Positions 1 through 37,145 of a stretch of DNA of 39,793 bases are shown here, one piece after another. Position 1 is the first letter of the stretch, and every line of letters begins with the position of its first letter. The translations under genes and the position numbers were made by a program. The notes beneath the pieces are model-generated. The model was not told where the DNA came from, ran no database searches, and saw only the letters and a list, made by a program, of their open reading frames with translations. This stretch comes from a virus. Where the stretch lies: the IMG/VR virus record IMGVR_UViG_3300046665_000767, positions 1 through 39,793 of that record; one strand, given 5' to 3'.

Positions 1-522
1 TCACATCTTCGGCTCGAAGCCGTACTGCATTGGCGGAGGCCCTATGTCGGCAAGTGATTTAACTGATAAACCCATCGAGGACGCTTTTTTCGTCAAGCCA
101 ATATCATGTGTCCATATCTCAGAAACGCCAGCCGCCACCGCGATAGCAAGGATCTGCCTGTCCACGCGAAGTTTTGCTTTCGAAGCGTCTGGGTCCATCT
201 GCTTCTGTTCGGCGTCAGACACCAACATCGCGCACTCAATTGCTGCGACCTGATCAAACGCCGCGACTTCGATAGATTTTACGGAGTTGATGATGTCTAG
301 GTGAGCCTGGAAAGCTGCTTTATCAATTCCGAATAGATACTCAGATAGCACCGGAGCAGGCAATACAACCAAGCCTCCAACGGCATCTACGTGATCAACA
401 AGAGCGACCGCTCTCTCGAATGGCCGATCTACAATTTCTCCGGTTTCCGGGTGTCGCAGATCGGTCGATCTTTGGTTTTGCATGATCTGAACAAGCACGT
501 TGGTATCAATTACGATTTTCAC
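1..522 (-). CDS. PIN-domain ribonuclease, VapC-like toxin or exclusion effector
   Basis: Encodes a 173-aa protein that fits the PIN nuclease fold, a metal-dependent RNase family that includes VapC toxins. The acidic residues expected of the active site are visible: D6 in IVIDTNVL, E61 in LSEYLFG, D121 in RVDRQILA and D140 in IWTHD. At 173 aa it is somewhat longer than a typical VapC (about 130 aa). I chose the GTG start because a purine-rich GGGGCTAGG precedes it and it lies 1 nt beyond the stop of the upstream gene; a longer reading starting at 570 would overlap that gene. It is the last gene of a cI > unknown > PIN row and probably shares the repressor transcript, so it should be expressed in the lysogen. 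Family is well supported; toxin versus anti-phage effector is inference. Confidence 0.8.
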   Translation of the reverse strand: MKIVIDTNVLVQIMQNQRSTDLRHPETGEIVDRPFERAVALVDHVDAVGGLVVLPAPVLSEYLFGIDKAAFQAHLDIINSVKSIEVAAFDQVAAIECAMLVSDAEQKQMDPDASKAKLRVDRQILAIAVAAGVSEIWTHDIGLTKKASSMGLSVKSLADIGPPPMQYGFEPKM

Positions 523-523
523 C

Positions 524-1255
524 CTAGCCCCTAGATTCCAAAATTTCCGAGTGAGGGCTAGGCATGTCATCCCATTTGACGCCCCCTGCAGCTTTCAGCT
601 TTGCAATAGCAGCCTTGAAGCCAACATCTTCAAGTCGTACATAGGAAGAAATCACAAGCTTGATCAGACGCCAGCTGCCGTCGGGACGGCGCTCCCATTC
701 TCCCTCGCCCTGAAGTCGAACTGGCTTGAAAAGGAGCTGGGCGAGGCGCTCTGCTAATTGGACGTTTGTTTCGCATAGCAACGTCTCTCCGTCTGCACCT
801 TCTAGCCTGACAGGGACAGTGGAGTCTTTGCCACCAACGCTATAGAGCCGGCCCTGCACGCTCGAGCTTTTAATGACGCGTAGCGGCGGCTCAGCTAGTT
901 TCCCTTTAGGAAACTGTATGATTTGGGCGCCTTCGGCTTTCAGATACCCATCGACACGATCATCAAGCATGAAATCGGAAAGCTTGCGATACGACCTAGT
1001 CGGCCGTTTCCCGCCTATCCCGCTGGCTACCTCGCGCACCTGGTTCAAGACGATTGGATAGCTGGAATCCTCGACCCTACAAATGAGCTGCGCAGACCCC
1101 TCTTTCACCGAATCAAAATGCACTGATGGTTCAGACCCGTAGAAGGAAGAGAGCTCGCGCAGGTACTCAGCGAGACGTTTCATCGAAAGTCTGTCAGGGG
1201 TAGTTCCGTCGAGATAGAGCGTTATATCTTTCATCATCTGATTATAGACAGCCAT
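524..1255 (-). CDS. Unknown protein paired with the PIN nuclease, possible antitoxin or sensor
   Basis: A 243-aa soluble protein that I do not recognise. It lacks the AbrB, ribbon-helix-helix and Phd signatures of ordinary VapB antitoxins and is about three times their size. The first 75 residues look like an alpha/beta domain (YLDGTTPDRLSMKRLAEYL region). Residues about 120-215 alternate hydrophobic strands with a conserved-looking PVRLQGEGEWERRPDGSW segment, which could be an OB-like barrel and hence bind nucleic acid; this is a guess from pattern only. It sits 42 nt after cI and 1 nt before the PIN gene, so the pair is very likely co-translated. The ATG directly abuts AAGG with no usual spacing, so initiation may be weak or may use M7 or M8. 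A TATAGT hexamer at 1267-1272 (read on the minus strand) could be a separate -10, but no good -35 is present. Confidence 0.75.
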   Translation of the reverse strand: MAVYNQMMKDITLYLDGTTPDRLSMKRLAEYLRELSSFYGSEPSVHFDSVKEGSAQLICRVEDSSYPIVLNQVREVASGIGGKRPTRSYRKLSDFMLDDRVDGYLKAEGAQIIQFPKGKLAEPPLRVIKSSSVQGRLYSVGGKDSTVPVRLEGADGETLLCETNVQLAERLAQLLFKPVRLQGEGEWERRPDGSWRLIKLVISSYVRLEDVGFKAAIAKLKAAGGVKWDDMPSPHSEILESRG

Positions 1256-1297
1256 CCTTGGTGTTCACTATAGGCATTCATCACCAGATGCCCACCT

Positions 1298-2101
1298 TCA
1301 CAAATCCCCGCCGCGCCAGATAACCCGGCCGATTACGCGGTGCTCATTAACTTCACTGCGCGAAAGCAGCAGATCCGGGTACGCGTCTTTGTCCTCGTTG
1401 TCGCTGCGGATAATCCAGCTGCCCAACGGGCTTTGAACCAGACGCTTTACGATGGAGCCTTTGTCGTTGCTGGTAAGGACGAAGACGTAGCCGTCCGCCG
1501 GCTCGGCGCGAGACGTGTCCACCAACAACACGTCATGGTCATCAATCGTTGGCCACATGCTGTCGCCATCTGCGTACATCACAAACAAGCTTTCAGCCTT
1601 GACGCCTTTAGTGCGCAGCCAATCAAGCTTGAAGGCGAGGGTGGCAAGGGTCTCGACGTGAGGGTTTTCGTAGCCGAAGCCGGCTGCAGCCCTGGCCGAA
1701 TATTGCGGGATATGGGCGTATCGATCTTCGGTCGCCTCAGCGTCCCCGCCGACAGGGAAGGGCGTGCTGGCGACACTGGCACTATCAGTCGGAGACGCCG
1801 TGCTTGTTACTCGCTTGATTCCGCCAGCCAGAGTAGGGCTGATCTTCCACGGCTCTATGTCGAGTACCTCGGACAGCTTTATAAGGGCATCCAGGTTTAA
1901 CGCCACCTTCCCATTCAGATACTGGCTGACAGTGCTCTGGGGAGAATTCCAGCCGCATTTTGCCCCAACCTCGCTCTGATTGAGTGTCGGCCGTTCGCCT
2001 TTGTCTTTGGATTCAGCGACCTTTCGCAGATACGCCTTCTTGAGGCGCTCGGCATCGTCGAGCTGATCTTGAGTGAGTGGGGTTCGGATAGGTTTGCTCA
2101 T
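1298..2101 (-). CDS. cI: CI-type prophage repressor (XRE HTH plus S24 peptidase)
   Basis: 267-aa repressor that keeps the prophage silent. The N-terminal part (about residues 15-85) is an XRE helix-turn-helix domain (NQSEVGAKCG...STVSQYLNGK). After an Ala/Ser/Thr-rich hinge, residues about 130-267 form a LexA/S24 autoprotease: nucleophile S181 in GDSMWPTI, catalytic K219 in SIVKRL, and a probable self-cleavage bond A140-G141 in ARAAAGFG. SOS/RecA-stimulated self-cleavage is therefore expected, giving DNA-damage induction. It is transcribed divergently from cro. No Shine-Dalgarno sequence precedes the ATG, and the predicted promoter places the transcript start almost on the ATG, as with the lambda pRM message. 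Family assignment is firm; induction behaviour follows from the family. Confidence 0.93.
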   Translation of the reverse strand: MSKPIRTPLTQDQLDDAERLKKAYLRKVAESKDKGERPTLNQSEVGAKCGWNSPQSTVSQYLNGKVALNLDALIKLSEVLDIEPWKISPTLAGGIKRVTSTASPTDSASVASTPFPVGGDAEATEDRYAHIPQYSARAAAGFGYENPHVETLATLAFKLDWLRTKGVKAESLFVMYADGDSMWPTIDDHDVLLVDTSRAEPADGYVFVLTSNDKGSIVKRLVQSPLGSWIIRSDNEDKDAYPDLLLSRSEVNEHRVIGRVIWRGGDL

Positions 2102-5574: not shown

Positions 5575-6032
5575 TGGCTGAGAAGATCCGCATCAACTCA
5601 CTGGCCGAGCTTTCCAGCATCACCGCTGCGATCCGCACGAAGGGATTCCCCTGCAACGTGACGATCACCGGCGCCGTCCGCAGCCTTCCACAGAACGCCC
5701 TGTTCCACAAGTGGTGCGAATGTGCTGCCCAGTTCTTCGTGAGCATGGGTAAGACCACGTTCGCTACCGGCGCGCCGATGAACATGGAAAACATGAAGCG
5801 CAACCTGAAGCTGACCTTCCTTGGTGAGGAGGTGGTGCGCGACATCAACCTGAAAACCGGCGAAGTCACTGAGCGCTACGAGCTCAAGCACACCAGCGAG
5901 CTGGACAAGGGAGCGATGCACTCCTTCATGACCTGCATCGACGCTTGGGCGCAAGAGCACGGCATCTATCTGCCGCACCCTGAAGACAGTGAGTACATGA
6001 AAATGCGCTGCAACATGGGGGAGGCGGCATGA
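5574..6032 (+). CDS. ninB: NinB recombination protein
   Basis: 152 aa. The RSLPQNALFHKWCECAAQFF segment and the C-terminal helical region (KGAMHSFMTCIDAWAQEHGIYLPHPE) match NinB (lambda Orf), a recombination mediator that binds SSB and single-stranded DNA and can replace RecFOR in phage recombination. It is followed by ninG three genes later, as in lambdoid nin regions. Length fits the family. Confidence 0.9.
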   Translation: MAEKIRINSLAELSSITAAIRTKGFPCNVTITGAVRSLPQNALFHKWCECAAQFFVSMGKTTFATGAPMNMENMKRNLKLTFLGEEVVRDINLKTGEVTERYELKHTSELDKGAMHSFMTCIDAWAQEHGIYLPHPEDSEYMKMRCNMGEAA

Positions 6033-6139
6033 AGCGGCTAAAAGATTTTGCCCGGGTGGTCGACTGCTTCATGGCGATGATGGAATGCGCGGCGCTCGAA
6101 CCATCAACGGCCCAGTTCCAGATCGGAGGTGGGTTGTGA
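6029..6139 (+). CDS. Micro-ORF after ninB (36 aa)
   Basis: 36 aa, start overlapping the ninB stop and stop overlapping the next GTG. Its last codons contain the GGAGG that serves the following gene. Sequence (MKRLKDFARVVDCFMAMMEC) is amphipathic with no known match. Its tight overlaps are the main support. Confidence 0.5.
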   Translation: MKRLKDFARVVDCFMAMMECAALEPSTAQFQIGGGL

Positions 6140-6387
6140 GCAATCATCCGCATTACTTCAAGGATGTGTCGCACCTCGACCAGGTAGACGTATATCGGGT
6201 TCTTGAGTTGTTCAATGTGACCAACCCCTGCATCCAGCACGCGATCAAGAAGCTGTTGTGCGCCGGCACTCGCGGTGTAAAGGACCACGAGAAGGATCTG
6301 CGCGAGGCTGTCGATTCAATCCACCGTGCGCTCCAAATGATCGCGGAGGATTGCAGCAAGCATTATCCGGCGGGGATGGTGGAATGA
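6136..6387 (+). CDS. Conserved hypothetical phage protein of the ninB-ninG interval
   Basis: 83 aa from a GTG start (SNHPHYFKDVSHLDQVDVYR...). The start is fixed by GGAGGT 6 nt upstream and by the 4-nt overlap with the preceding stop. The sequence resembles small phage proteins of the DUF3310 type (HPHYFKDV, VDVYRVLELF, CIQHAIKKLL), which recur in nucleotide-metabolism and nin regions; that assignment is from memory and tentative. Function unknown. Confidence 0.72.
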   Translation: MSNHPHYFKDVSHLDQVDVYRVLELFNVTNPCIQHAIKKLLCAGTRGVKDHEKDLREAVDSIHRALQMIAEDCSKHYPAGMVE

Positions 6388-6968
6388 ACCGAACATCCAT
6401 CACGCGCAAGAAGAAGACCTGCGCCAATCCAGTCTGCGACGTCCAGTTCGTGCCAGCCCAGCTCGGCCAAAAGGTCTGCGGCTGGGCATGCGGCCTAGCC
6501 ATCGCGCCGGCGAATCAGGACAAAGCGCGCAAGGCCATTGAGCAGCGCGAGCGCAGGGAGATTCGGGTTCGTAAGGAGAAGCTGAAGAGTAGGGCGGATC
6601 ACCTCAAGGACACGCAGCATGCCTTCAATGCTTGGATACGTCAGCGCGACGCAGGCGATCCGTGCATCAGCTGCGGGACCACTGCGGACGTTCAATATTG
6701 CGCGGGCCACTACCGGACAACCGCGGCCGCTCCAGAGCTTCGCTTCGAACCGCTCAATGTGCATCTGCAGTGCAATCGCAACTGCAACATGGGCAAGTCC
6801 GGGAATCTTTTGGGCTACCGGCCGAGGCTGATCGAGAAGATCGGCGCCGAAAAGGTTGAGTGGCTGGAGGGCCCGCATGAGCCGAAGAAATACACGATCG
6901 AAGAGTTGCAGGCGATGACCGCGCATTACCGCGCACTGGTCCGAGAACTGAAGGGGAGAGCAGCATGA
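6384..6968 (+). CDS. ninG: NinG recombination protein
   Basis: 194 aa. Paired cysteines near the N-terminus (C13, C18, then KVCGWACG) form a zinc site; a long basic helix follows (RERREIRVRKEKLKSRADHL); the C-terminal half has an HNH-like zinc/nuclease region (CISCG...YCAGHYRT...LQCNRNCNMGKSGN). This is the NinG (lambda Rap) architecture, a junction-resolving endonuclease in phage recombination. Start chosen at the ATG overlapping the previous stop; an upstream in-frame extension would lie over another gene. Confidence 0.9.
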   Translation: MNRTSITRKKKTCANPVCDVQFVPAQLGQKVCGWACGLAIAPANQDKARKAIEQRERREIRVRKEKLKSRADHLKDTQHAFNAWIRQRDAGDPCISCGTTADVQYCAGHYRTTAAAPELRFEPLNVHLQCNRNCNMGKSGNLLGYRPRLIEKIGAEKVEWLEGPHEPKKYTIEELQAMTAHYRALVRELKGRAA

Positions 6969-29075: not shown

Positions 29076-32000
29076 ATGGGCGCAGCACAGCAGTTAGATA
29101 TTCATGGCGCCAAGGGCGGCAGCACCACACCAAAGTCGCCAACAGAAGCCACCGACAGCCTGCGCTCAACGAACCTTGCAAAGATCCTGATTGCGGTCGG
29201 TGAGGGCGAGTTTGACGGCGTCCCTACGGCAAAGGACATCTACCTCGACAACACCCCGATCGAGGACGTGAACGGCAACGTCAACTTCCCAAATGTGCAA
29301 TGGGAATGGCGTTCTGGCGCCGTCGAGCAGTCCTACATTCCCGGCATCCCGTCCGTTGAAAACGAAACGACCGTCAACGTTGAGCTGCGCAACGACGCGC
29401 CTTGGGTTCGCTCGATCACCAATGTTCAGCTTTCGGCAGTGCGCGTGCGCCTGGCGTGGCCGGCACTTCAGCAGCAGGACGATGAAGGCAACGTCGGCGG
29501 GTACCGGATCGAATATGCAATCGACATCGCGACAGATGGCGGCGCTTATCAGCAGGTGCTGAGCGAAGCCGTCGACGGAAAAACCACCACCCGTTACGAG
29601 CGTTCGCGCCGCGTCGACTTGCCGGTTGCGACCACTGGCTGGCAGATCCGCGTCCGCCGCATCACCGCAAACCAGAACACCAATAAGGTCGCTGACACCA
29701 TGCTGGTGGCTGGTCTGACTGAAGTCATCGACAAAAAGCTGCGCTACCCGAACACCGCTTTGCTCTACATCGAGTTCGATGCCGAGCAGTTCACCAACAT
29801 TCCCGCCGTTACCGTCGACTGTAAGGCCAAGAAGTGGCAGGTGCCGAGCAACTACGATCCTGTCGCACGAACCTACACCGGAGTGTGGGACGGCACATTC
29901 AAGGAGGATTGGACCAACAACGCAGCCTGGATAACTTTCGGCGTCTGCACTGAAGACCGGTTCGGCCTGGGCAAGCGCATCAAACCCTTCATGGTCGACA
30001 AGTGGGAACTGTACCGGATCGCGCAGTACTGCGACGTGATGGTATCCGATGGGGTGGGTGGCCAAGAGCCGCGATTCCTTTGCGACATGAACATCCAGGG
30101 GAAGTCCGACGCTTGGGGACTTCTGCGCGATATTTCTGCGATCTATCGGGGCATGACCTACTGGGCCCAGGGTCAGCTTGTGATGCAAGCTGACATGCCG
30201 CGCGCGCAGGATTTCGATTACGTCTTCACCCGTTCAAACGTGATCGACGGCAAGTTCTCCTACGGTAGTGCCTCCTCTAAAACCCGCTACACCCGCGCGA
30301 TCGTCAGTTACGATAATCCGGCGAACAACTACGACACCGACGTCGTGGCCTATTCCGACCTGCCCCTTCAGCGCCGCTTTGGCGACAAGCCAGTGGAGAT
30401 CAGCGCAATCGGCTGCACTCGCGCATCCGAAGCGCAACGTCGTGGCAAATGGGCGGTGCTCACCAACAACTTCGACCGTACCGTCAGCTTCAAGACCGGC
30501 ATGGAGGGTGCAATCCCTCTGCCTGGCTACATCATCCCGATTGCCGACTCGCTGTTGGCAGGCCGGGAGATCGGCGGGCGGATCTCGGCCGTTGCCGGGC
30601 GCGTCGTGACGCTTGACCGTGACAGCCAGGCGAAGGCGGGCGACCGTCTGATCATCAACCTGCCAAGCGGCAAAGCCGAGGCTCGCACCGTTCAATCGGT
30701 CGCTGGGCGCGCCGTGACTGTCACGACCGCCTACAGCGAGACCCCTGTCGCCCAGCTGCAATGGGCGATCGATGCTGATGATCTGGCAATCCCGCTGTAT
30801 CGCGTGATGAGCACCAAGCGCACGACTGAGGGCGATTACGAAATCACGGCTTTGCAGTATGAGCCGAGCAAGTTCGCGGCGATCGACACCGGCGCGCGCC
30901 TGGAAGAACGTCCGATCAGTGTGATCCCGATCACCGTCGTTCCGGCGCCGGCGAGCGTGACGCTGACGTCGACCTCGGCCGTGTCGCAAGGCATCGCGGT
31001 CACCACCATGACGATCGCCTGGCCCGCGGTGAGCGGCGCAGTGGCGTACGACGTGGAGTGGCGCAAAGACAACGGTAACTGGATCTCCGTCCAGCGCACC
31101 GGCATGACCAACGTCGACATTACCGGCATCTACTCGGGCGGCTATCTGGCCCGCGTGCGCGCTGTCAGCGCATACGACATCACCTCGGTCTGGAAAAGCT
31201 CGAACCTCACTCAGCTGAACGGCAAGGAAGGCCTGCCGCCGGCGGTGACCTCGCTCACCACCACCAGTCTGCTGTTTGGTATCGGCCTGAAATGGAACTT
31301 CCCGGCTGGCGCGGAAGACACCCAGCGCACCGAGATATGGTACAGCCAGTCGCCTACGCTGGAGACCGCGACCAAACTGGCTGACCTGTCTTACCCGCAA
31401 TCTGATTATTCGCTGCAGCAGCTCAAAGCCGCGATCACGTTGTTTTTCTGGGCGCGCCTGGTGGACCGTTCCGGCAACGTCGGTCCGTGGTATCCAGCCG
31501 GTAACGGTGTAGCCGGGCAAACGAGCTCCGATGCTGACGCCGTGCTCGATCTGCTCGTGGGCCAGATCACCGAGAGCCAGCTTGGCCATGAGCTGCTTTC
31601 CGATATCCAGACTGGCGGCTCAGGTCCTGGCTCTATCAGTGAGCGTTTGACCGAGATTGACGGGGACTTAATTGATCTTGGCAATCAGTCGATCACGATC
31701 CGCGACAACCTGCAAAGCCAGATCACCTCGGTGAACGGCACGCTGACGTCCGTAAAAAATGACCTTCAAGGTCAGATCACCGCGGCGAACGGCACCCTCA
31801 CGTCTGTAAAAAATGACCTGCAGGGACAGATCACAGCGGCCAACACTGCAATCACCGCCACCAACACCGCGTTGAACGCAGCGAAGACCAACCTGCAATC
31901 GCAGATTGACGCCGTGAACGTGATCGCGGGCTCTCTGCCGTACAAGGCGAGCAGCACCTACACGACCGGAAAAGCGACTCTCGGCTCTGACGGGATCATC

Positions 32001-35000
32001 TATCAGGCGACGCAGAACGTCCCGATCAACACGCCGCCGCCGAACACCACCTACTGGCTGAACATCGGCCAGGCCGCCGCCGCAGGTTCTGCGCTCAGCA
32101 CTCGCGTGCAAACTCTCGAGACTCGCGCGACCAGCATCGAAGGCGTGAATAGCACGCAGGCGACGCAAATCACCGGCCTGACCAGCTCTGTCGCCAACAA
32201 GGCAGACGCGTCGGCGGTCACGTCGCTGACCACTCGCGTGACCACTGCCGAGGGCAACATCACTTCGCAGGGCAATGCGATCACCGGCCTGACGAACACT
32301 GTCGCGGGCAAGGCTGATTCGACCACTGTCACGAACCTGACCAACACCGTGACGCAGCAAGGGACGGCGATCACGGCGCAGGGAACGGCGATCACTGGCA
32401 TTACTGCCAGCTTGGGTGACGTAGGCGGGCAAAACCTGTTCTACAACCCATCGTTCGACTATCTGCTGGCTGGCGGATCGACAACCATTGCTGACGGCTT
32501 CGCCGTAGGCGTGTCCTCGGGCTCGACTGGCGTTGCAAGCGTCGTACCTTCAACCCTGGACACAAAAGGGAAAGCGCAGCGCCTCGACATTACTACCACT
32601 GCCTCGTCGTATGTCGACCTGACCACGAGCGGCGCGAGGCGTCCGGTGGCTATTCAAGGCCAGAGCATCATGCTGTCCGTTTACTTCCGCGCAACGGCTG
32701 GCCTTGCCGTGCGGATGTACATGCAGACCGTCAACTCGGCAGGCGCCACATTCGCCACTCGCACCGGCGCGTCCGTCATTGCTACCGGCGAATGGCAGCG
32801 CATTCAGCTCGACTACGCGAACCTGCCGGCCAACACCGTGTCGATCAACTCGATTTTCCGTGCGGGCGGCGCCCTTGGCGGATCTGTTCTGTCGGGCTTC
32901 GTCGAGTGGGATCGCGCGCAGCTTCAACTCGGGACGGTCGTCACAGGCTGGCAGGACAATGCGACCACGCTGGCGACAGACGTAGCCGCGAACGCTACAG
33001 CGACAACCGCGCTCACTGGCCGGGTTGCGACCGTTGAAGGCACTGTGACGAGTCAGGGGACGTCGATCACCAACCTGACGAACAGCATCAGCGCAGCGGG
33101 TAGCCAGAACATGGCCTATAACCCTGCGTTCGTGCGCGACGGCACTCAGGCGAACATCGCTGACGGCTGGTACAACGACAACGCCACTGGCCCGACAAAG
33201 AGCTTCACCCTCGTTCCTTCGTGGATTACGGCGACAGAGCGGGCACAGCATTACGATCTGTCCGGACTGAGCCCGTCGCTCTACCACGGTCTGTCGAACA
33301 CCGCTTTGATTCCCGTTTCAGAGGGCCAGCCTTTCGCGGTATCCGCCTACCTGCGCGGAACTGCTGGTCTGGTCGTTCGCATCCGTACCAGCGCGCGCGA
33401 TTCGACAGGCGCAGAGATCGGCGCCGTGACGAGCGGCGCCGTCACGCTGACCGGTAACAATGATCAGCGGATCTCGGTCGTCTATCCATCGTTGCCGGTC
33501 GGCACAACGCAAGTGCGCTTCTATTTCCGCACCTACGGCACCGCCACCGTGACAGCGGGATACGTTGAATTCACACGCGCGCAAGCAGAGATCAGCTCGG
33601 TCGTGAGCGGCTGGAGAGACAACAACGGCACGCTGGCTGCGGAAGTTACTGCGAACGCAACCGCAACCAATGCCCTAACGACCCGTATCACCCTTGCAGA
33701 AGGCAACATCTCAACGCAGTCGGGCCAGATCACCACCCTGACCAATGACGTCGCTGGTAAGGCCAGCTCGGCGACCGTGTCTGCGCTCGACTCGCGCGTC
33801 ACATCGGCGGAAGGGACAATCTCGTCGCAGGGTTCGGCCATCACGAACCTGACAAACACGGTCGCCGGTAAAGCTGACGCGTCCGCCCTGAATGCTCTGA
33901 CGACTCGCGTGACGAGCGCAGAGGGCACAATCATAAGCCAGGGCAACTCGATCACCAGCTTGACCAGCACGGTCAACAACAAGGCCGACGCATCCGCCGT
34001 CACTGCCTTGACTACCCGCGTGACCGCGACCGAGAGCAAAAATAGCTCGCAAGATTCGACGATCACCAGTCAAGGGACGGCGATCACCAATCTGCAAAAC
34101 GCCCTGCCAGGCAAGGCAGACGCATCTGCTGTGACCGCCCTCACAACTCGCGTATCGAGCGCGGAGGGTACGATTTCGAGTCAGGGCTCAGCGATCACGA
34201 GCCTCCAAAACGCGTTGCCAGGCAAAGCAGACGCGTCGACCGTGAGCGCCTTGTCGAACACAGTCACGCAGCAGGGAGCGGCGATCACGGCTCAGGGAAC
34301 GGCGATCACTGGCATCACGGCGAGCCTCGGCGACGTCGGCGGCCAAAACCTGCTGTTCAACCCGTCGTTTGATGTGCTCGGTACGGTCGCCGGATCTGCA
34401 AGCGGCTGGAGCCATGGCACAACGGGCGGCGCCCTGCGCACTCCGACGCTCGTCACGTCGACGCTCGACACCGCTGGCAAGGCGCAGCGCCTGGACGTTA
34501 CAGGCATGAACGCTACCAACTCCTACGCACAGATGTACATCGCGACCGGCAAGCTGCCAGCCTGCGTCGAGGCGCAATCAATCGCGGGCTCGACCTACGT
34601 GCGAGGCACTGTCGGTTTCACTTTGCGGTTCTTCCTCGAGTTTTGGGACACGGGCGTCATCAACCTGCTGCAACGCACCACCGAATCAGCCCTCGTAATG
34701 ACGGGCGATTGGCAGCGCGTGAGCAAGATCGCCGTAGCGCCTGCCGGGACCGCTGCTGTTCAGTTCCTATTCCGCATGTTCGGCACCGCGTCGGTATCGG
34801 CTGGGTTCTTCGAGTTCGACCGCGCGCAGGCTCAGCTAAGCACGGTCGTAAGCGGATGGCAGGACAACACCGGAACTATCGTTGCCGACGTCGCCGCGCA
34901 GGCAACGGCGACCAACGCTTTGACTGGCCGCGTCACAACCGTAGAGGGAACCGTCAGCACTCAGTCGAGCCAGATCACGGCGCTGACAAACAATTTGACG

Positions 35001-37145
35001 AACAGCGGCGGCGATAACCTGCTACCGAACAGCTCGTTCGAGGATATGGCGACCACTCTCCGCCCTAAATACTGGCAAGTGGGCGGGAGCGCCTCGTGGA
35101 CCGATTCCGTTCCTGCTTCGCCGCTGACCTTGAGCACGCAGTCGTATCGCGCTACATCTGCGGCGGCGGTTCCGGTTGCGGGAACGCTTGAAATTCGATT
35201 CAACACCGCAGAGGGTCCACGTCCGAAGGTCACTGGCGGCAACACCTACACGCTCAGCTCTTTCATCCGTGGATCGACTGGCGGCTTCCGTATCTCGATG
35301 TACATTCAGTTCATGAACGCGGCAGGGACAGTGCTCAGCACTCCCACGATGACCGAAACCCTCGTGACTGACACGTTCACGCGCTACACGCTGACCGGCG
35401 TCGCTCCTGCTCTTGCCGTGAGCGCGAACGTTTACGCCGCGCGGATCTTTAACCGCACTGCTGCTGCCGCTGATATGTTCGTCGAGGTCGATAACGTCCA
35501 GCTCCAGGAAGGCCCGGTGGCGACCGCGTACAGCCCTGCTGTCAAGATCGCGATCGACGCGCAGTCCGCAGCAACCGCCGCTCTCACCTCTCAGGTCGCG
35601 CAGCAAGGGACTGACATCACCAGCGCATCGACGCGCGTCACCAATCTGGAAAACAGCGTGAACAACGCTACGACCGGCCTGGCTACCAAAGCGAGCAGCG
35701 CTGCGCTTGATTCCCTGACGTCGACCGTCACGACTCAGGGAACCAACATCACCAGCGCGACAAACCGCGTGACGACTCTTGAGAACAGCGTAAACAACGC
35801 CTCGACCGGTCTGGCGACGAAGGCAAGCAGCACCGCCCTCAACTCGCTGTCGGGCACGGTGACGACCCAGGGCAAAACGATTACGTCGCAAGGGACCGCG
35901 ATCACGAACCTGACCAACACGGTCAACAGCACCACTGACGGCCTGGCAACGAAGGCGAGTGCGGCGGCGCTCACGGCCGTGACCAATCGCGTGACCGCTG
36001 TCGAGGGCGTCAACACGAGTCAGTCGACCAGCATCACGAACCTCACCAACTCGATCAACTCGATTCAGGGTGATCTAAACGGGGCGGAACTGGACGCAGC
36101 ACTTGGAGCAAACTGGAACTTCGACGGTTCCCTCGATAGCTGGTTCGGCCAGAACGCAGCAGTCGGTATCGTCGCCGGGACGTACATGCGGGTGACTTCG
36201 TCGAGCAGCACCAACCCGATTTTTGCCCGAGGCGCACTGGCGATCGATGGCTCTCTGTTCAACCTGGTCCGCATGAAAATCACACGTCGAACGAATACAA
36301 CGACCGACTGGATCGGCGCCATGTATTACGCCACGGCAGGTCACGGCGTGAGCTCGAGCTACTACAAGATCGCTGCAAACCCAAACCTCGCGGCAAACCA
36401 AAGCGCGATCGTTGAATGGGATATGTCCACGCTGACCGCTGGCGGCACGGACTGGACCACCAGCCTCATCAACACGATCCGTTTCGACCTCGGCAAAAAC
36501 ACCGACAGTGTTTTCGATATCGACTGGGTCGTTGTAGGTCGTAAAGGCCCTGGAGCATCAAGCCAGGCGCTGGCGTCGCTGTCTTCGACGGTAACGCAGC
36601 AGGGGGCCACCCTGACGTCCCAGGCGTCGCAGATCACGAACCTGAACGCCACTGTTGGGAATCAAGGCGCGGCGATCCAGACTCAGGCCACGGCCATCGC
36701 TGACACTGCCGGGAAGGTTTCAACCTCCTACGTCGTGAAAATGCAGGCCATGGTCGATGGACGCCTGTTCGCCGCAGGGTTCGCAGCCGGTCTCGATAAT
36801 AGTCAGGGGCCGACACAGTCGCAATTCATCGTCAGCGCCGACCGCTTTGGCGTTCTCAATGCCGACCTGAACGGCACGGTCACATCGCCCTTCATCATTG
36901 AAGGCGGGCAAGTGTTTATATCCGACGCGGTGATCAAGAAGGCAACGATCACCAATGCCTTGGTCGGGCAGGCAGTTAACTCGCTCGCTATGACCAACTT
37001 TGGTGAACCCGCGATGACGTCAAATTACTCTGACGGTAGCCAGGTAATTCGCAGCCGAACCAAAGCAAATACCTACACGCTGAGCAACTCGACCGGCTTT
37101 TACTTGGTTGACTCTAACGTTGTAGTCGTAGAGTTAAGCATGTGA
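29076..37145 (+). CDS. J: Host specificity / tail tip protein J, giant repeat-built form
   Basis: 2689 aa, more than twice lambda gpJ (1132 aa). Residues 1-620 are the conserved J tip domains; about 625-715 and 718-815 are fibronectin III-like; 880-950 carries an 18-residue tandem helical repeat; 952-1000 looks like a CBM5/12 carbohydrate-binding module (ends YWLNIG). Then five jelly-roll-like modules (1117-1295, 1342-1516, 1755-1931, 1978-2157, 2334-2492), the first four opening with G(G/S)(Q/D)N and ending in a domain-closing Gly-Trp or Thr-Ala-Tyr motif, are joined by coiled-coil repeats of 37 or 44 residues. The last 150 residues resemble the DUF1983 tip segment. It binds the receptor and opens the tail. 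Start has GGAG upstream. Confidence 0.93.
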   Translation: MGAAQQLDIHGAKGGSTTPKSPTEATDSLRSTNLAKILIAVGEGEFDGVPTAKDIYLDNTPIEDVNGNVNFPNVQWEWRSGAVEQSYIPGIPSVENETTVNVELRNDAPWVRSITNVQLSAVRVRLAWPALQQQDDEGNVGGYRIEYAIDIATDGGAYQQVLSEAVDGKTTTRYERSRRVDLPVATTGWQIRVRRITANQNTNKVADTMLVAGLTEVIDKKLRYPNTALLYIEFDAEQFTNIPAVTVDCKAKKWQVPSNYDPVARTYTGVWDGTFKEDWTNNAAWITFGVCTEDRFGLGKRIKPFMVDKWELYRIAQYCDVMVSDGVGGQEPRFLCDMNIQGKSDAWGLLRDISAIYRGMTYWAQGQLVMQADMPRAQDFDYVFTRSNVIDGKFSYGSASSKTRYTRAIVSYDNPANNYDTDVVAYSDLPLQRRFGDKPVEISAIGCTRASEAQRRGKWAVLTNNFDRTVSFKTGMEGAIPLPGYIIPIADSLLAGREIGGRISAVAGRVVTLDRDSQAKAGDRLIINLPSGKAEARTVQSVAGRAVTVTTAYSETPVAQLQWAIDADDLAIPLYRVMSTKRTTEGDYEITALQYEPSKFAAIDTGARLEERPISVIPITVVPAPASVTLTSTSAVSQGIAVTTMTIAWPAVSGAVAYDVEWRKDNGNWISVQRTGMTNVDITGIYSGGYLARVRAVSAYDITSVWKSSNLTQLNGKEGLPPAVTSLTTTSLLFGIGLKWNFPAGAEDTQRTEIWYSQSPTLETATKLADLSYPQSDYSLQQLKAAITLFFWARLVDRSGNVGPWYPAGNGVAGQTSSDADAVLDLLVGQITESQLGHELLSDIQTGGSGPGSISERLTEIDGDLIDLGNQSITIRDNLQSQITSVNGTLTSVKNDLQGQITAANGTLTSVKNDLQGQITAANTAITATNTALNAAKTNLQSQIDAVNVIAGSLPYKASSTYTTGKATLGSDGIIYQATQNVPINTPPPNTTYWLNIGQAAAAGSALSTRVQTLETRATSIEGVNSTQATQITGLTSSVANKADASAVTSLTTRVTTAEGNITSQGNAITGLTNTVAGKADSTTVTNLTNTVTQQGTAITAQGTAITGITASLGDVGGQNLFYNPSFDYLLAGGSTTIADGFAVGVSSGSTGVASVVPSTLDTKGKAQRLDITTTASSYVDLTTSGARRPVAIQGQSIMLSVYFRATAGLAVRMYMQTVNSAGATFATRTGASVIATGEWQRIQLDYANLPANTVSINSIFRAGGALGGSVLSGFVEWDRAQLQLGTVVTGWQDNATTLATDVAANATATTALTGRVATVEGTVTSQGTSITNLTNSISAAGSQNMAYNPAFVRDGTQANIADGWYNDNATGPTKSFTLVPSWITATERAQHYDLSGLSPSLYHGLSNTALIPVSEGQPFAVSAYLRGTAGLVVRIRTSARDSTGAEIGAVTSGAVTLTGNNDQRISVVYPSLPVGTTQVRFYFRTYGTATVTAGYVEFTRAQAEISSVVSGWRDNNGTLAAEVTANATATNALTTRITLAEGNISTQSGQITTLTNDVAGKASSATVSALDSRVTSAEGTISSQGSAITNLTNTVAGKADASALNALTTRVTSAEGTIISQGNSITSLTSTVNNKADASAVTALTTRVTATESKNSSQDSTITSQGTAITNLQNALPGKADASAVTALTTRVSSAEGTISSQGSAITSLQNALPGKADASTVSALSNTVTQQGAAITAQGTAITGITASLGDVGGQNLLFNPSFDVLGTVAGSASGWSHGTTGGALRTPTLVTSTLDTAGKAQRLDVTGMNATNSYAQMYIATGKLPACVEAQSIAGSTYVRGTVGFTLRFFLEFWDTGVINLLQRTTESALVMTGDWQRVSKIAVAPAGTAAVQFLFRMFGTASVSAGFFEFDRAQAQLSTVVSGWQDNTGTIVADVAAQATATNALTGRVTTVEGTVSTQSSQITALTNNLTNSGGDNLLPNSSFEDMATTLRPKYWQVGGSASWTDSVPASPLTLSTQSYRATSAAAVPVAGTLEIRFNTAEGPRPKVTGGNTYTLSSFIRGSTGGFRISMYIQFMNAAGTVLSTPTMTETLVTDTFTRYTLTGVAPALAVSANVYAARIFNRTAAAADMFVEVDNVQLQEGPVATAYSPAVKIAIDAQSAATAALTSQVAQQGTDITSASTRVTNLENSVNNATTGLATKASSAALDSLTSTVTTQGTNITSATNRVTTLENSVNNASTGLATKASSTALNSLSGTVTTQGKTITSQGTAITNLTNTVNSTTDGLATKASAAALTAVTNRVTAVEGVNTSQSTSITNLTNSINSIQGDLNGAELDAALGANWNFDGSLDSWFGQNAAVGIVAGTYMRVTSSSSTNPIFARGALAIDGSLFNLVRMKITRRTNTTTDWIGAMYYATAGHGVSSSYYKIAANPNLAANQSAIVEWDMSTLTAGGTDWTTSLINTIRFDLGKNTDSVFDIDWVVVGRKGPGASSQALASLSSTVTQQGATLTSQASQITNLNATVGNQGAAIQTQATAIADTAGKVSTSYVVKMQAMVDGRLFAAGFAAGLDNSQGPTQSQFIVSADRFGVLNADLNGTVTSPFIIEGGQVFISDAVIKKATITNALVGQAVNSLAMTNFGEPAMTSNYSDGSQVIRSRTKANTYTLSNSTGFYLVDSNVVVVELSM
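31741..31848 (+). repeat. 54-bp tandem repeat in J
   Basis: Two near-identical 54-nt units encode the 18-residue repeat NDLQGQITAANGTLTSVK in the helical linker of J. Small nucleotide differences are mostly silent. Confidence 0.75.
33759..34337 (+). repeat. 111-nt coiled-coil repeat array in J
   Basis: Units beginning KA(D/S)(A/S) start at 33759, 33870, 33981, 34113 and 34224: spacings of 111, 111, 132 and 111 nt (37, 37, 44, 37 residues). The single long unit has one extra heptad, so the coiled-coil register is kept. Confidence 0.85.

Follow-up and report, generated by a model that had tools for sequence, protein, structure and literature searches.

We analyzed a two-gene module in the IMG/VR virus record IMGVR_UViG_3300046665_000767, whose 39,793 bases are together referred to as the window. 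Here, a gene for a 243-amino-acid (aa) protein, which we call the partner, is directly followed by a gene for a PIN-domain nuclease (PIN). Partner and PIN are a real unit, and the pair is a mobile cassette that is common to phages, plasmids, and chromosomes. It is widespread and apparently undescribed; a published description of it was not found in the open-access literature. With regard to its function, we see an even chance that the pair is a mobile toxin–antitoxin-like unit, in which the partner would act as a controller that restrains the PIN RNase and frees it when cued by nucleic acid or infection. In the window, both genes form a tight minus-strand row of three open reading frames (ORFs) together with a cI-like repressor gene, which confirms the gene order given in the initial annotation:

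1298–2101, minus strand: cI-like repressor of 267 aa (Pfam Peptidase_S24, E 9.1e-14; HTH_3, E 1.2e-7)
524–1255, minus strand, start perhaps at 1234: partner of 243 aa (ORF), assigned to PHROG 19868, which is listed without function
1–522, minus strand, from the GTG at 522, with the frame open to the ATG at 570 (1–570): PIN-domain nuclease of 173 aa (Pfam PIN), assigned to PHROG 21691 (E 1.6e-35), which is likewise listed without function
520–526, minus strand: partner stop codon TAG (524–526) and PIN start codon GTG (520–522), separated by 1 nucleotide (nt) in the sequence and thus likely translationally coupled

The record starts at the PIN stop codon, so that the DNA 3' of PIN lies outside our view. 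The gap between cI and the partner amounts to 42 nt if the partner starts at 1255; most relatives point to a start at about 1234 (MKD) instead, and one close relative (locus L002) has the longer form, too. In most aligned relatives, PIN starts where the window has its GTG at 522 (KIVIDTNVL), and the sequence AGGGG is found a short way upstream of this GTG.

Relatives of the pair were gathered by tblastn and pattern scans. Partner relatives were identified in the Pseudomonas phages Ostro and Pacha_bin_1, in Cupriavidus, Methylobacterium, Pleomorphomonas, and Kingella plasmids from a plasmid collection, including a conjugative one, as well as in 11 genome contigs and 44 viral contigs. The same plasmid collection yielded Sinorhizobium and Proteus records of 3.5 and 4.1 Mb, which are filed as plasmids and are probably chromosomes, judging from their size and, for Sinorhizobium, also from the neighboring genes. 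PIN is located directly behind the partner in 63 of 67 partner loci, whereby this total includes a few contigs that were fetched twice. Three of the four loci without PIN stop at the partner, and the fourth (L053) turns into unrelated DNA within the last ~40 codons of the partner. Clustering at 90% identity resulted in 39 groups, 38 of which have PIN. For the reverse test, the PIN profile was used at E ≤ 1e-10; it matched 8 of 398 genomes from a Pseudomonas-genus sample and 9 of 398 genomes from a phylum sample, one genome being common to both, and in all 16 genomes the partner directly adjoins PIN. One of them (G001) was the center of the genome draw and the other 15 are independent draws. 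The partner profile recovered the same 16 genomes and, in addition, a stop-containing remnant (G272) and two weak matches to the OB domain only (G487 and G574), all three without PIN. Roughly 2% of the genomes in the Pseudomonas-genus and phylum samples thus carry the pair, and the association between the two genes, which the initial annotation had left to be looked for, is strongly conserved. A chance neighborhood was set aside as an explanation because the association holds in both directions and in 16 of 16 genomes. A distant DNA search of 20,395 E. coli records with the Proteus pair gave no match, nor did tblastn with the window PIN in phages, though Ostro and Pacha_bin_1 carry a divergent PIN. 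As a separate observation, the homology of L053 to the Ostro partner (99.2%) breaks off inside the gene at about 5671, with unrelated DNA beyond and no PIN found; the break may reflect recombination, excision, or an assembly chimera.

Wherever both genes were found, the order is always partner then PIN. They are −4 to +3 nt apart in 32 of the 37 cluster representatives; among the 37, PIN begins with TTG 19 times, with ATG 12 times, and with GTG 6 times (TTG or GTG in 25/37). Starts and gaps were picked automatically as those nearest to the profile start, whereby L007 and L012 are misplaced owing to their broken PIN frame. In three lineages, namely L007 (Sinorhizobium), L012 (Kingella plasmid), and L072 (Pseudomonas), PIN is broken and the partner is intact; among the loci examined, none showed the opposite combination of an intact PIN and a broken partner. 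Such one-sided decay in these loci is what a toxin with its keeper would lead one to expect. Of ten gene comparisons, six were calculable and gave ratios of nonsynonymous to synonymous substitution rates of 0.018–0.054, i.e., strong purifying selection on both genes; these values are rough, because the synonymous sites have reached or nearly reached saturation.

The window PIN matches the Pfam family PIN (PF01850) with E values of 5.1e-5 to 7.1e-5, barely above the family cut-off. An alignment was built from 30 of the 39 cluster representatives, leaving out seven from phage or plasmid records as well as L041 and L043, which are without PIN DNA. Pfam PIN was matched by 26 of these 30 members (E ≤ 0.01), and the four acidic PIN residues D6, E61, D121, and D140, which had been reported for the window protein before, are invariant in all 30 sequences. 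The PIN profile yielded no match at E ≤ 0.01 against PDB sequences. With PADLOC, the window PIN gave a weak match to the candidate-defense model PDC-M11A (E 3.3e-4, 17.5 bits), which covers a short part of the 486-position profile. In locus L003, the minus-strand ORF just behind the pair (5754–6416) has what we take to be an NYN/LabA-like look (VLIDAGF ... GDSDF) and is a possible second PIN-like nuclease.

For the partner, no Pfam or PADLOC match was obtained with the window protein, and NCBIfam yielded noise only (best E 0.13). For family-wide searches we used a set of 31 of the 39 cluster representatives, from which L037 was left out by hand, together with seven from phage or plasmid records. 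All 31 members are taken in by PHROG 19868. A search of the 31 members against Pfam at E ≤ 10 gave nothing above noise, i.e., 10 families with one member each and a best E value of 0.024; neither RHH, AbrB, Phd, or HTH antitoxin models nor DUF5830 are among these 10 families. The remark of the initial annotation that the partner lacks a usual VapB fold thus holds for the family. PADLOC gave four one-member matches (best E 0.0096), and the best hit of the partner profile against PDB sequences had an E value of 0.15. The partner is an uncurated family, for which no Pfam, NCBIfam, or PADLOC model was found and which yet occurs in phages, plasmids, and ~2% of the sampled genomes.

The pair resembles type II VapBC systems in being a two-gene module with coupled genes, in which the regulator gene precedes the PIN gene, in having a PIN with four acidic residues, and in its occurrence on plasmids, prophages, and chromosomes. 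It differs in the partner, which has about 240 aa and predicted TRADD-N-like and OB domains, whereas VapB is a small DNA-binding protein. A standard VapBC was set aside on the ground of this predicted fold. PIN toxins with new partners are of a known kind, and PIN-associated antitoxin families include COG2442, COG2886, COG2880, COG1753, and MerR-like proteins (PMC2701414); the partner is unlike every such family described in the text of that paper that was available.

AlphaFold2 modeling of the partner with 31 sequences predicted two confident domains with an uncertain mutual placement (mean pLDDT 84.9, pTM 0.52). The following features were assigned:

914–1234, minus strand: predicted N-terminal alpha/beta (RRM-like), TRADD-N-like domain, residues 8–114 (structure model of residues 1–122; VIA)
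1094–1099, minus strand: G53-S54 in the beta2-beta3 turn, at the position of the TRADD-N uS motif (alignment; model strands 45–51 and 55–62)
626–880, minus strand: predicted OB fold (SSB/PriB/RPA-like), residues 126–210 (structure model; VIA)

With the OB region, Foldseek returned 41 PDB matches at E ≤ 0.001, comprising SSB, CST, RPA, ExoVII, OBody, and tRNA-synthetase entries. With VIA, the region (residues 127–213) aligned to the SSB Rim1 (6cqm_F) with Z 9.6 (3.7 Å, 83 aligned residues) and to PriB (1txy_A) with Z 9.3 (2.7 Å, 73 aligned residues). Structure prediction thereby confirmed an OB fold for the second half of the partner (about residues 127–210), for which an OB-like strand pattern had been noted earlier. 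RexA is not among the Foldseek and VIA matches listed for the partner, whereby absence from these lists excludes nothing. Since SSB and PriB are the best matches of the OB domain, it was also considered that the pair serves replication, recombination, or plasmid maintenance, with a PriB- or SSB-like OB protein and a PIN that processes RNA, and that no conflict system is involved. This appears highly improbable to us in view of the patchy presence in ~2% of the genomes, the varied cargo-like sites, the fixed PIN partner, and the decay of PIN in three lineages. Apart from this, the best BFVD match is A0A8S5QA00, a phage DUF6575 protein whose alignment spans the complete partner model in 261 columns (Foldseek E 1.1e-8, TM 0.35, 9.0 Å) and which, by this model comparison, may have the same two-domain layout.

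Modeled alone (residues 1–122), the N-terminal domain reached a pLDDT of 89.4 and a pTM of 0.83. Foldseek with this domain gave no match at E ≤ 0.001 (best E 0.015). In VIA, the top row is human TRADD-N (1f3v_A) with a weak Z of 7.5 (3.5 Å, 101 residues). The next row, a cadherin chain with Z 6.7, is tied with it by the rule of the tool, and assorted ferredoxin-like folds come after; for another TRADD-N entry (1f2h), Z is 5.1. At the beta2-beta3 turn, the alignment of the 31 partner members shows GS in 28, GC in two, and AS in one. In the TRADD-N superfamily, this turn carries a strongly conserved uS motif, in which Ser is occasionally replaced by Cys (Kaur et al. 2021, PMC8195603, available text). 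The motif match provides independent support for the TRADD-N likeness of the N-terminal domain. The superfamily is also described as giving profile matches to ACT and dystroglycan domains (PMC8195603), and ACT-domain entries as well as one chain of a dystrophin glycoprotein complex (subunit not stated) occur in the fold lists of the N-terminal domain. A reference TRADD-N search in the phylum sample matched 13 of 398 genomes, none of them above the family cut-off.

Compared with the bacterial TRADD-N conflict proteins (PMC8195603), the partner is alike in its predicted RRM-like fold, in the uS motif with an occasional exchange of S to C, and in the link to an effector. Those proteins, as far as that text describes them, are multidomain and over-represented in multicellular bacteria, whereas the pair is phage, plasmid, and proteobacterial cargo. 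An OB fusion or a separate PIN partner is not named for TRADD-N proteins in the available text of PMC8195603. It is conceivable, though we hold it to be rather doubtful, that the partner combines a genuine TRADD-N adaptor with an OB sensor. On meeting single-stranded nucleic acid or an SSB-like protein of a phage, its TRADD-N domain would then be flipped off the separate PIN RNase, and the infected cell would be killed. If so, the pair would be a minimal phage- or plasmid-borne counterpart of bacterial and animal death-signaling adaptors, and TRADD-N would have left the large multidomain proteins of multicellular bacteria for a two-gene mobile suicide switch.

A toxin–antitoxin-like unit fits the data best because the pair is obligate, the keeper comes first, PIN is coupled and weakly started, its active-site residues are intact, its decay is tolerated, and the spread of the pair is cargo-like. 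By inference, a concrete mechanism can be derived from the TRADD-N model of Kaur et al. (PMC8195603, as far as available), in which an interface is kept inactive until a signal reshapes it. Accordingly, the first gene would provide a two-domain controller, whose TRADD-N-like domain probably docks on PIN and whose OB domain probably binds single-stranded nucleic acid. The PIN RNase would be translated weakly via stop/start coupling and would be made only alongside the controller, which would hold PIN inactive in the resting cell. A cue at the OB domain, such as single-stranded DNA, single-stranded RNA, or a replication or SSB protein of a phage, or else the loss of the controller would release PIN. 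Freed PIN would then cut RNA, probably tRNA or rRNA, and cause growth arrest. In the window prophage, the position of the pair beside cI would lead to expression in the lysogen and possibly to the exclusion of other phages; elsewhere the pair would be an independent cassette, with a putative role in maintenance or defense on plasmids. Inhibition, trigger, RNA target, and phage exclusion are hereby what we infer. If the proposal is true, the pair is a PIN system whose controller has its own nucleic-acid-binding domain instead of being a DNA-binding antitoxin. It also offers a small testable system for the control of killer enzymes by TRADD-N-like domains.

Several points weigh against the toxin–antitoxin-like reading and its mechanism. 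The TRADD-N match with Z 7.5 is tied with the unrelated row of Z 6.7 and lies at a level that unrelated folds reach, so that the modeled likeness may just be a common arrangement. In addition, none of the 31 partner members matched a TRADD-N Pfam model at E ≤ 10 (PF20694 is, by its name, the TRADD-like model), and because no sequence-level link to a TRADD-N model was found, we term the domain TRADD-N-like and do not call it a member. At most six partner and eight PIN candidates were scored per genome, whereby unpaired PINs could be overlooked. The three broken PINs are few, and sequencing errors could be among them. Finally, the genomics is about equally compatible with a defense pair that requires both proteins and whose partner does not act as an antitoxin, as described for DS-5 in the available text of PMC13092281.

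This latter thought leads to the main rival explanation, which we consider possible, although the balance is against it: a two-component phage defense, in which the OB/TRADD-N-like partner would serve as a positive sensor, bringing PIN to phage nucleic acid or activating it there; PIN by itself would be non-toxic, and the pair hence no toxin–antitoxin system. It is consistent with a large partner with a predicted nucleic-acid-binding fold, with the location of pairs in prophage immunity regions, and with the weak match of PIN to PDC-M11A. A PIN pair of like logic, DS-5, has been published (PMC13092281). As far as the available text of this DefensePredictor study goes, DS-5 and DS-3 share a PIN RNase effector with our pair, and DS-5 is also a two-gene pair; the DS-5 partner, however, consists of DUF5830 and an AcrIF4-like domain, and DS-3 is a single gene. 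A DUF5830-type DS-5 was set aside, as there was no DUF5830 match. Also in its favor, restriction genes were found directly upstream of the pair in two loci, namely an MmeI-type restriction-modification gene (L020:1204–4878) and an Mrr-type endonuclease gene (L023:3845–4765). The upstream survey covered 52 of 64 ORFs, 10 of which were included in the restriction-gene scan, and the 52 ORFs also gave two MqsA-type antitoxin matches and one RelE-type match, which were not assigned to loci. In contrast, 0 of 16 distinct neighbor proteins matched a defense family (16 of 116 listed proteins, from 10 of 16 genome loci), and six of the 16 had no match at all. Moreover, PIN stands second with a mostly weak start, and the three PIN losses with the partner kept suit an antitoxin better than a sensor.

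The initial annotation had compared the row with cI-rexA-rexB of phage lambda. A Rex-type lysogen module, in which cI, partner, and PIN would be one evolved operon that excludes other phages, appears improbable to us as an explanation of the pair. The position as such is present in the window and recurs: 13 of 39 clusters, including the window with its 42 nt between the ORFs, have a same-strand S24 repressor no more than about 700 nt upstream, and 18 of 39, mostly viral records, have one within 2.5 kb. These counts come from a search model of five repressors of these loci, which divergent or HTH-only repressors can escape, and from a 39-cluster sample that is weighted to viruses and in which some loci hold little upstream DNA; L039, for example, has an HTH_3 gene upstream of the pair. 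Like the RexAB systems of lambda and P. putida (PMC12894663, as partly available), the pair comprises two genes behind a repressor, of which the first encodes a candidate sensor; P. putida RexAB, too, lies behind a CI-like repressor, with two genes between. However, the effector of the pair is a PIN nuclease and not a RexB-like membrane protein, and the pair is not tied to cI. No S24 repressor was found upstream in 4 of 6 plasmid-collection loci (L007, L009, L010, and L011) and in 14 of 15 drawn genomes (G001 left out), where only the displayed upstream genes were considered and HTH-only repressors would be missed; the remaining one is L111. Furthermore, the repressors ahead of the pair are unrelated: the partners of the window and L002 are 94% identical, whereas their cI proteins share 24% identity overall and 18% across the N-terminal 90 residues. 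With near-identical partners behind dissimilar cI proteins, the cassette has thus come to stand behind different repressors. The repressor-side position is recurrent in phages and not constitutive, and the Rex operon was set aside as a general explanation because the repressor is not common to the pair-bearing loci.

On chromosomes, four Pseudomonas loci (L107, L109, L110, and L112) have the same DNA on both flanks of the pair. Upstream, the common site is bordered by a sigma-factor/vWA block; on its downstream side, a gabD-type gene for succinate-semialdehyde dehydrogenase is named in L107. The locus L113 shares the upstream flank with this group, and its downstream match begins only after ~6.7 kb of other sequence. 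Few genomes of the genus sample carry the pair, and the common site may be a hotspot for insertions or else an old locus that has mostly been lost. Other chromosomal copies are located by bioC-bioD (L108) and by alaS (L114); the sites of the pair thus include positions between housekeeping genes.

As to the rest of the window, a comparison of its first 25 kb with the phage collection gave 14 records of near DNA relatives, most of which (8) are Pseudomonas phages. Opposite cI there is a small divergent ORF on the plus strand (2216–2413), which looks Cro-like by eye, as in a lambdoid switch. One plus-strand ORF of 2689 aa (29076–37145) probably encodes, judging from its size, a phage tail or host-interaction protein.

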